Below are positions 38,499 through 40,973 of a stretch of DNA of 64,000 nt, one piece after another. Source of the stretch: Mesorhizobium sp. ZC-5 (GTDB lineage Bacteria; Pseudomonadota; Alphaproteobacteria; Rhizobiales; Rhizobiaceae); contig NZ_JAOWPT010000015.1 of assembly GCF_025753855.1 (NCBI RefSeq), positions 62,001 through 126,000 on the forward strand. Direction: 5' to 3'. The notes beneath the pieces are model-generated. The model made no database searches and was not told the origin of the DNA. It worked only from the letters and a program-made list of their open reading frames with translations. The first letter of the stretch is position 1, and each line of letters starts with the position of its first letter. A program made the translations under genes and the position numbers.

Positions 38499-39923
38499 TT
38501 ATTCCGCCGCTTGCGCGGCTGCGTTCAGCCCAAGCCAAGTCCGGCAATCTGTCAGCGCGCGTCCCGTCATCGCCTTCTTCCGGGCGATGGATTTGTCCTT
38601 GCCGCGGAAGCGGCCTTCGAAACCTTCGGGCCGCAGGTTCGTTCCGGCTTCCAGCGGCGGGAACAGCCCGAAATTGACGTTCATCGGCTGGAACGAACGT
38701 TTGCCCGGTTCGTCGTCGGAAACAATATGGCCGCCGGTGATATGGTTGAGCAGTGCCCCGAAAGCCGTGGTGACGGGCGGCAATGAAGGCGCCCGTCCAA
38801 GCCGCTCGGCCGCGGCGAAGCGGCCGGCCAGCAGGCCGATCGCGGCGCTCTCGACATAGCCTTCGCAGCCGGTGATCTGGCCGGCAAAACGCAGGCCGGG
38901 GCGAGACTTCAGCTGCAGCGAGCCGTCAAGCAGCGTCGGCGAATTGATATAAGTGTTGCGGTGCAGTCCGCCGAGGCGGGCGAATTCGGCGTTCTCGAGT
39001 CCCGGTATCATCCGGAAGATGCGCACCTGCTCGCCGTGTTTCAGCTTCGTCTGAAAGCCGACCATGTTGTAGAGCGTGCCCAGCGCGTTGTCCTGGCGAA
39101 GCTGCACAACAGCATATGCCTTGACCGTCGGATTGTGCGCGTTGGTCAGGCCCATCGGCTTCATCGGGCCATGGCGCAGCGTCTCGACGCCGCGTTCGGC
39201 CATCACCTCGATCGGCAGGCAGCCGTCGAAATACGGCGTGCCTTCCCACTCCTTGAACTCGGTCTTCTGGCCGTCGAGCAAAGCCTGCACGAAGGCTTCG
39301 TACTGAGCCTTGTCCATCGGACAGTTGATATAGTCCTTGCCGGTGCCGCCGGGCCCGACCTTGTCGTAGCGCGACTGGAACCAGCAGGTACCCATGTCGA
39401 TCGTGTCGAAATGCACGATCGGCGCGATCGCGTCGAAGAAGGCGAGCGCGTCGGCGCCGGTGGCCTCGGCGATCGCCTGCGCCAGCGACGGCGCCGTCAG
39501 CGGGCCGGTGGCGATGATCGCCTTGTCCCATTCGGCGGGCGGCAGACCGGGCACTTCTTCACGGGCGATGGAGATCAGCGGGTGCGCTTCGAGTTTCGCG
39601 GTGACGGCTGCCGAGAAACCGTCACGGTCGACGGCCAGCGCACCGCCGGCCGGTACTTGATGAGCGTCGCCGCAAGCCATGATCAGCGAGCCGGCGAGCC
39701 GCATTTCGGCATGCAGCAGCCCGACCGCATTGGTCTCGGCGTCATCGGAGCGAAAGGAATTGGAACAGACGAGCTCGGCCAGGCTGTCGGTCTTGTGAGC
39801 GTCGGTGCCGCGCACCGGGCGCATTTCATGAAGGATCACTGGCACGCCGGCTTGCGCCGCCTGCCATGCGGCTTCGGAGCCGGCCAGGCCGCCGCCGATC
39901 ACGTGGATTGGTTCTGTCGTCAT
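38499..39923 (-). CDS. trmFO: Methylenetetrahydrofolate-tRNA-(uracil-5-)-methyltransferase TrmFO
   Basis: A 474-residue folate/FAD-dependent enzyme forming m5U54 in the tRNA T-loop. [18 protein letters not shown] is the FAD-binding loop. [32 protein letters not shown] and the C-terminal [20 protein letters not shown] are TrmFO (Gid) signatures. ATG 39923 gives [11 protein letters not shown]; the frame is open to 39995 without family similarity. On the minus strand it lies just downstream of the tandem CCUCCUCCC hairpins. Confidence 0.94.
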
Positions 39924-39982
39924 GCCGGGGAAATAGGCCGTTGGCTTGCCGAAAGCAATCGTCGGAAGCTCACGCATGGTCC

Positions 39983-40101
39983 AAAACGACAACACCCGCC
40001 GGGGGAGGAGGTCCGGCGGGTGTCGTTTTGGTGGTCAGCGCCCGGGAGGAGGTGGGAGCTGACCGTATTCGTCATCGCCTGGGAGGAGGTAGGCTTTGAC
40101 G
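39983..40101 (-). ncRNA. Cuckoo/alpha-r14-like anti-Shine-Dalgarno RNA, unit 2 (three hairpins)
   Basis: Read on the minus strand, three stem-loops expose CCUCCUCCC in their loops: motif copies at 40081-40089, 40044-40052 and 40003-40011. Stems include GGTCAGC/GCTGACC and an 11-bp ACACCCGCCGG/CCGGCGGGTGT. The last hairpin is followed by GTCGTTTTGG on the RNA side and can act as the terminator. The motif is complementary to ribosome binding sites, or mimics the 16S tail. It is the second of two tandem units downstream of the DUF1127 genes. Confidence 0.75.
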
Positions 40102-40145
40102 AAATTCTTTTCGCCTTCGAGGCAGCGAAGAGCCTTGATTTAACA

Positions 40146-40255
40146 GCACCCGCCGAGGGAGGAGGTTCGGCGGGTGCCGTTTTGGTGGTCAGCGTCCGGG
40201 AGGAGGTGAACGCTGGCCGTATCCGTCGGAACCTGGGAGGAGGTAGGTTCCGGCG
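40146..40255 (-). ncRNA. Cuckoo/alpha-r14-like anti-Shine-Dalgarno RNA, unit 1 (three hairpins)
   Basis: On the minus strand, three stem-loops carry CCUCCUCCC loops at 40235-40243, 40198-40206 and 40157-40165. The stems are GGAACCT/AGGTTCC, GTCAGCGT/ACGCTGGC and the 11-bp GCACCCGCCGA/TCGGCGGGTGC. The unit begins 12 nt after the stop of the second DUF1127 gene, so it is likely cut from a common transcript. The third stem is nearly the same as in unit 2, showing tandem duplication. Known relatives are the CcsR RNAs of Rhodobacter and the alpha-r14 family of Sinorhizobium. Confidence 0.75.
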
Positions 40256-40267
40256 AAATTCCTGTTA

Positions 40268-40408
40268 TCAGGCCGCCTTGCGAGCGACGTAAGGGATGTC
40301 GCTGCGGCTGATGCCGAGGTCCGAGAGCTCGCGGTTCGACAGGCGGTCCAGCTCGTTTACCGTTTCACGGTAACGGCGCCAGTTGCGGTAATTGCGGATC
40401 AGGTTCAT
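40268..40408 (-). CDS. DUF1127 small Arg-rich protein, copy 2 (46 aa)
   Basis: A 46-residue protein starting MNLIRNYRNWRRYRETVNEL with the conserved RLSNRELSDLGISRSDIP core, ending YVARKAA. It is too short for many gene finders. DUF1127 proteins are small basic RNA-binding-like proteins; the Rhodobacter relative CcaF1 affects maturation of the downstream CCUCCUCCC RNAs. It is 78% or more identical by eye to the copy at 40435 and lies directly upstream of the hairpin RNAs. Confidence 0.9.
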   Translation of the reverse strand: MNLIRNYRNWRRYRETVNELDRLSNRELSDLGISRSDIPYVARKAA

Positions 40409-40434
40409 GGTTCTGCTCGTTTCTTGGTCTTCGA

Positions 40435-40575
40435 TCAGATCGACTTGCGCGCGACGAACGGAATGTCGCTGCGGGTGATGCCGAGATCGGTGAGTTCACG
40501 GTTCGACAGGCGGCTCAGCTCGGAGACGGTGTCCCGGTAGCGGCGCCAGTTGCGGTAGTTGCGGATCAAGTTCAT
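40435..40575 (-). CDS. DUF1127 small Arg-rich protein, copy 1 (46 aa)
   Basis: A 46-residue protein: MNLIRNYRNWRRYRDTVSEL, then RLSNRELTDLGITRSDIP and FVARKSI. GAGAAG lies 4 nt before the ATG. An open frame to 40686 exists, but the DUF1127 family begins at MNLIRNY. It is the first gene of the leftward DUF1127-DUF1127-RNA unit. A heat-shock-sigma-like promoter stands about 60-85 nt upstream of the start codon. Confidence 0.9.
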   Translation of the reverse strand: MNLIRNYRNWRRYRDTVSELSRLSNRELTDLGITRSDIPFVARKSI

Positions 40576-40630
40576 CGTACTTCTCGTTTCGTCTTTGGTT
40601 CGTTTCGTTCGTTCATTTTGTGTGACCCGA

Positions 40631-40659
40631 AAATAGGTGGTGGCATTTCGTTTTTGAAG
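40631..40659 (-). promoter_or_regulatory. Possible RpoH-type promoter of the DUF1127/RNA unit
   Basis: On the minus strand CTTCAA (40659-40654) and CCTATTT (40637-40631) are 16 nt apart, close to the alphaproteobacterial RpoH pattern (CTTGAA and CCATAT-like). This would place the start about 50 nt before the first DUF1127 gene. In Rhodobacter the equivalent locus is under RpoHI/RpoHII. Not proven. Confidence 0.4.
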
Positions 40660-40677
40660 CGCCAATGATGCATGGCA

Positions 40678-40697
40678 GCAATGCAATTGTGCATTGC
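40678..40697. promoter_or_regulatory. Palindrome upstream of the DUF1127 promoter
   Basis: GCAATGCA and TGCATTGC form perfect 8-bp arms around ATTG. It lies 19 nt upstream of the proposed -35 box and is a possible operator. The remaining stretch up to the tRNA-Leu gene at 40974 shows no gene or RNA that I can support. Confidence 0.35.
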
Positions 40698-40973
40698 AAC
40701 ATTAATCGATTTTAGCGACTGCGGCGAAACCAAGGCCGAAACGGAAAACTGCCGTTAGGTGAATGGCTTGGATGGGCTCGTTGAAACGGATTGGAGTCTG
40801 GGCTGTTAGAGGGCAGTCTGGGTGGGGACGGCCACGGACAGGCTCTTATGCAACGAAAGTAAAAGAAGGTCTGGCCGGGCTCAAAGCCAACTTCATGGTG
40901 GCGTGAAGGATCGAAACGTGATGCGGAAGGGATGGCCGCCGGTCGTCGGGCTCTGGGTTAATCCAAGGATGGC

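Follow-up and report, generated by a model that had tools for sequence, protein, structure and literature searches.

A CcsR (cuckoo) RNA unit consists of two hairpins. According to a citing paper (PMC10253847), alphaproteobacteria commonly have DUF1127 genes next to CcsR-like RNAs, an arrangement that has been named CIN1, and the association of such genes with related RNAs is thus already in print; CcsR processing involves RNase E with CcaF1, one reported RNA-binding member of the DUF1127 family (PMC10253847). The alpha-r14 (ar14) RNAs are described as having three hairpins with CCUCCUCCC in each, and in NfeR1 of Sinorhizobium meliloti any of three redundant loops pairs with the ribosome binding site and silences mRNAs (PMC10746234). 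NfeR1 is activated by LsrB in S. meliloti, and its authors leave open which RNA chaperone, if any, serves it (PMC10746234). Six copies exist in S. meliloti, and under the conditions tested northern blotting reliably detected only one of them (PMC7143759). VtlR and LsrB are orthologues, LsrB is tied to oxidative stress, and VtlR/LsrB circuits have diverged between species (PMC7486931); for AbcR of S. meliloti, an effect of LsrB is absent in that Agrobacterium paper and present in a later one (PMC8844928).

Here we consider a locus in a 64,000-nucleotide stretch of Mesorhizobium DNA (the whole stretch analysed, referred to below as the window). From its sequence, we think it probable that the locus is a DUF1127-DUF1127-ar14-ar14 operon, controlled by VtlR/LsrB and releasing two anti-Shine-Dalgarno RNAs that silence many mRNAs. 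The find is genuine yet mostly ordinary, being a further example of a common RNA family; what is new lies in comparative details, namely the pattern of T-runs in arrays, the 5-nt spacing between gene and unit, and the conserved LysR-type box. Among the matches listed for literature naming NfeR1, Smr14 or DUF1127, a scope that leaves aside the primary cuckoo and CcaF1 papers, none names NfeR1 and DUF1127 together.

Two complete ar14 units behind two DUF1127 genes

A motif scan of the whole window found GGGAGGAGG six times on the plus strand, at 40003, 40044, 40081, 40157, 40198 and 40235, exactly as the first-pass annotation had reported, and nowhere else; shuffled versions of the window contained a mean of 0.60 sites, and none of 100 reached six. 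On the minus strand, folding gave six stable hairpins with every copy of CCUCCUCCC unpaired in a 10-nt loop, which bears out the earlier claim that each copy sits in the loop of a stem. The fold z-score was -9.3 for the 308-nt stretch spanning both units, -6.6 for unit 1 alone and -8.9 for unit 2 with 12 nt extra. The covariance search that had been proposed as a check returned two complete matches to RF02344 (ar14), both exceeding the Rfam gathering cut-off of 58.8 bits over the whole model (Table 1), so the annotation was right to see alpha-r14/cuckoo-type anti-Shine-Dalgarno RNAs on the minus strand. It was mistaken in taking two loops as usual and three as unusual: three are the ar14 standard (by the Rfam match and PMC10746234), and with this its main reason for surprise is gone. 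The two DUF1127 mini-genes that it had placed upstream are indeed there, both matching PF06568.

Table 1. Features of the locus, with positions in the window
Feature	Position	Strand	Basis and remarks
LysR-type (VtlR/LsrB-like) box CATTGCTGCCATGCA	40669..40683	-	13/15 to Brucella VtlR box; aligned across 19 promoters, with a conserved block extending further upstream
Putative core promoter CTTCAA-N17-CTATTT	40631..40659	-	Predicted from sequence; CT and CTAT columns are conserved across an alignment of 19 promoters
DUF1127 gene 1, 46 aa	40435..40575	-	PF06568, E 2e-17; ATG at 40575, within a longer TTG ORF
DUF1127 gene 2, 46 aa	40268..40408	-	PF06568, E 1e-17; 26 nt after gene 1
ar14 unit 1	40141..40262	-	RF02344, 99.1 bits, model 1-123; three hairpins, CCUCCUCCC in each loop
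Spacer, 32 nt, between the two Rfam matches	40109..40140	-	Sequence; no promoter recognised
ar14 unit 2	39987..40108	-	RF02344, 93.3 bits, model 1-123; three hairpins, same loops
trmFO (GidA family)	38499..39923	-	PF01134, E 4.2e-100; downstream neighbour, starts 63 nt past unit 2

The two units share a pairwise identity of 0.81, and unit 2 is closer to the end unit in another genome of the same genus (0.92) and to Mesorhizobium end units (up to 0.87); our view of positional orthology is based on such pairwise identities among units of 85 bits or more. In an alignment of 18 units the loops are invariant and the stems covary: both sides change in 18 of 26 pairs, a level reached by none of 500 shuffles. 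Of all cells 90.8% pair (76.7% when shuffled), with a covariation score of 0.454 compared with 0.200 for shuffled alignments. The structure used was derived from the same 18-unit alignment, which favours these values; Rfam's own ar14 model has the same three hairpins. The downstream trmFO gene is probably outside the sRNA system.

Array ends and processing

Defining an array as units at most 120 nt apart, we found 14 arrays of two to six units each. A run of at least four T in the 20-nt stretch around the unit end was present at none of 24 internal units and at 47 of the 60 units that stand last in an array or alone, counts that are non-independent, as many of the species are closely related. 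Twelve of the 14 array ends have such a run, the exceptions (L027 and L062) having three T. The presence of T-runs at the ends of arrays, and never internally, suggests a single transcript that is cut into units. Beyond the Mesorhizobium-like group, it is supported by a single Aurantimonas array, that of L066. In the window, unit 1 lacks a T-run after hairpin 3, and hairpin 3 of unit 2 continues into GTCGTTTT, to about 39983, making a possible end terminator.

Two Aurantimonas loci carry longer series of ar14-like units after one DUF1127 gene, six in tandem at L062:3087-3897 and four at L066:2192-2691; in both, the third loop is shorter and of the TCCTCCCCC type.

The stop codon of DUF1127 gene 2 lies 5 nt from the start of unit 1, and both window units start with the A/U-rich GAAUUUCG. 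The two are most likely cut from a longer transcript, and a site of cutting near GAATTTCG is suggested by the processing of CcsR (PMC10253847). The exact GAATTTCG is present at only 9 of 18 aligned unit starts, both window units among them, which counts against the operon reading, as does the reliable appearance of just one of the six S. meliloti copies on northern blots (PMC7143759).

The alternative that retains most force is that each ar14 unit has a promoter of its own, within DUF1127 gene 2 or unit 1, and that the DUF1127 neighbours are incidental. NfeR1 does have its own sigma70 promoter (PMC10746234), and neighbouring units in Rhizobiaceae are at least 144 nt apart; but the gaps here are only those of 5 nt and 32 nt, no internal unit among the 24 has a T-run of four or more, and a scan of 39880-40800 found no promoter-like site, although its consensus was of the E. 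coli type. We therefore regard individual promoters as unlikely. The same scanning bears on the preferred operon too, in that it called neither a promoter nor, in the window, a minus-strand terminator; the 10-nt loop may exceed the 8-nt limit of the terminator scan. On the plus strand there are two terminator-like sites with a CGTTTTGG tail (39992-40023 and 40146-40177, at the third hairpins; 1.3 expected), and the array might also stop transcription coming from the other side.

A conserved LysR-type box upstream

Ahead of DUF1127 gene 1 comes TGCAATGCACAATTGCATTGCTGCCATGCA, and then the putative core promoter. Searching both strands with the Brucella VtlR box (sequence from PMC12595884) and allowing at most three mismatches, we located a box ahead of DUF1127 in 23 of 25 promoters hand-picked from loci with DUF1127, the two misses being L028 and L094. 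When the corresponding 300 nt from the window were shuffled base by base, 13 of 2000 shuffles had a match at this level. In the whole window there are six such sites against 2.1 expected, of which that in the promoter is the best and a second overlaps it. Across the 6.3-Mb genome, 26 sites have at most two mismatches to the window form of the box (one for the reversed pattern), and its exact copy occurs solely at the DUF1127 promoter. At some, but not all, of 23 further loci, mostly from Rhizobiaceae, a weaker box stands ahead of an ar14 unit or a DUF1127 gene.

The genome has four ar15 matches, and the LysR gene adjoining an ar15/AbcR RNA matches 9HH1, the structure of A. tumefaciens LsrB, with an E value of 7.8e-139. 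Both features of a VtlR/LsrB regulon, the box in the promoter and the orthologous gene in the genome, are thus present, and binding of the regulator is predicted. Three of the four ar15 loci were examined, and in two of them (L130 and L132) a similar box starts 62 nt upstream; these boxes have two and three mismatches, and one of the two ar15/AbcR RNAs that they precede adjoins the LsrB/VtlR orthologue. That VtlR/LsrB circuits differ between species (PMC7486931) is a further point against extending such control to the present operon.

This promoter region also bears on the proposal of the first-pass annotation that the locus is a CcsR-like stress cluster under RpoH sigma factors. The gene order does match that of ccaF1-CcsR1-4, which closes with a single terminator (PMC10253847), and the core CTTCAA-N17-CTATTT does not tell which sigma factor would be used, but the strongly conserved element is a LysR box of the VtlR/LsrB type and the three-loop unit is ar14, so that heat or RpoH-type control is not supported, although some RpoH input may exist; we rate this proposal a little below that of individual promoters. 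A candidate NtrC-like site, TGC-N11-GCA, was noticed upstream of the window box; the spacing is 12 in Mesorhizobium promoters, and it is therefore not claimed.

Occurrence in relatives

Conservation of the hairpins in related genomes, on which the earlier reading had been made to depend, is extensive: ar14 is found in 146 of 151 genomes and 105 of 109 genera of the family to which the window's genome belongs, mostly as two or more matches, and in none of 14 control genomes. The window's own genome has five ar14 matches at E <= 0.001, three of which exceed the cut-off and some of which are on other contigs; in two further genomes of the genus the counts are nine and three. That the hairpins act chiefly in cis, as a leader or attenuator of the trmFO RNA or as a plus-strand terminator, is suggested by the co-oriented trmFO, 63 nt downstream, and by the terminator-like sites of the plus strand, but is very improbable in view of the ar14 matches on other contigs and throughout the family, and of invariant loops with covarying stems.

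For the immediate context we compared 80 named loci around trmFO, 71 of them longer than 9 kb, using a model built from 18 units that gave 99 matches over 86 sources; same-strand matches of at least 33 bits were kept, opposite-strand or weaker ones were dropped, and the cut-off match of L023 was used for presence only. ar14 occurs at 46 of the 80 loci and DUF1127 at 65, with both at 44 and neither at 13; exact CCTCCTCCC sites in these loci are all on the trmFO strand. The first unit begins at most 60 nt after a DUF1127 match at 26 of the 45 loci with scored units and at 217 nt at one further locus, and at the other 18 no DUF1127 match ends before the first unit. Fourteen of these 18 we take, from their genus names, to belong to Rhizobiaceae; in L083 the ar14 and DUF1127 matches overlap, and the two may truly be adjacent. 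At most Rhizobiaceae loci ar14 is separate from, and upstream of, the DUF1127 genes, and 21 of the 80 loci have DUF1127 without ar14, both of which count against the operon reading.

A weaker ar14 match of 57.4 bits, under the cut-off, lies elsewhere (L004, on contig C26 of genome G000), and the open frame about 0.6 kb downstream of it resembles a type III effector of rhizobia, which may point to a symbiosis region.

Proposed mechanism and targets

In the operon that we favour, the VtlR/LsrB orthologue would activate a single promoter located about 50-60 nt ahead of DUF1127 gene 1, and one transcript would cover both DUF1127 genes and both ar14 units, its end lying at the final hairpin of unit 2. 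Cutting near GAAUUUCG by an endonuclease, probably RNase E and perhaps with help from DUF1127 (as for CcaF1 in Rhodobacter), would free two RNAs, each some 122 nt long. Through its three CCUCCUCCC loops, each RNA would base-pair with purine-rich Shine-Dalgarno stretches and prevent many mRNAs from being translated, in the manner of NfeR1; the main effect of the second unit would be a higher dose.

The genome contains 369 instances of GGGAGG-N4-10-ATG (62 of the reversed pattern), so there are hundreds of possible partners for the loops. Since GGAGG is absent from the 25 nt before both DUF1127 genes and trmFO, the operon's own genes should escape silencing; the DUF1127 gene of Aurantimonas L062 has GGAGG, so such escape is not general.

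Genes with GGGAGG before ATG had transport domains in 7 of 12 cases (called with a crude ORF caller; G000 contig C1:1-400000, L184-L203), against a control of at least about 9 in 60 by the families listed (25 of 85), these being the first 60 of 110 genes drawn from 295; this is in line with the targets of NfeR1 and AbcR. Two other candidates were set aside. The genome shows no enrichment of the full GGGAGGAGG (49 sites against 61 for the reversed pattern, 12 of the 49 being within ar14 or ar15 matches), and conserved targeting of ntrB, a known target, was dropped, only a GGGA core being present before the likely ntrB start, which was placed from its position before ntrC.

What might the DUF1127 proteins do? 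Rather speculatively, they could be the missing partner of the Hfq-independent ar14 RNAs, binding the co-transcribed array, guiding its cutting and perhaps aiding the anti-Shine-Dalgarno loops, with the number of units (one to six per array, or up to 18 C-rich loops) an evolved dose control under VtlR/LsrB. We are inclined to doubt this: the reports that DUF1127 proteins of A. tumefaciens bind PhoR, a kinase, and that no RNA binding was seen for Salmonella YjiS (PMC12501420) both count against a role as RNA partner. The proteins may serve another purpose; in S. meliloti, a DUF1127 gene is under attenuation control (PMC12218461). As ar14 shares an apparent operon with two small DUF1127 proteins, relatives of the reported RNA binder CcaF1, the idea is directly testable.

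Comparison with known systems

Each window unit has three hairpins and each CcsR unit two; the DUF1127 proteins are of 46 aa in the window and of 71 aa in CIN1, and the conserved promoter element seen in the window is a LysR-type box, where CIN1 is marked by an RpoHI/RpoHII promoter. The likeness to that locus (ccaF1-CcsR1-4 of Rhodobacter sphaeroides) lies in a DUF1127 gene followed by related RNAs, with a terminator at the end (PMC10253847), and the DUF1127 gene directly upstream on the same strand is present here. The AbcR/ar15 RNAs (RF02345) resemble the window units in having anti-Shine-Dalgarno seeds and, in relatives, VtlR/LsrB control; they form a separate Rfam family, however, and S. 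meliloti AbcR1/2 are reported to bind Hfq, whereas NfeR1 is reported not to (PMC8844928). Closest of all is the founding member of ar14, NfeR1 of S. meliloti, which shares with the window units the three hairpins, the CCUCCUCCC loops, a length of about 122 nt and a LysR-type box in the promoter region. It differs in being transcribed from its own promoter (PMC10746234), whereas the window has tandem units behind two DUF1127 genes, with gaps that leave no room for a promoter at the level of the unit.
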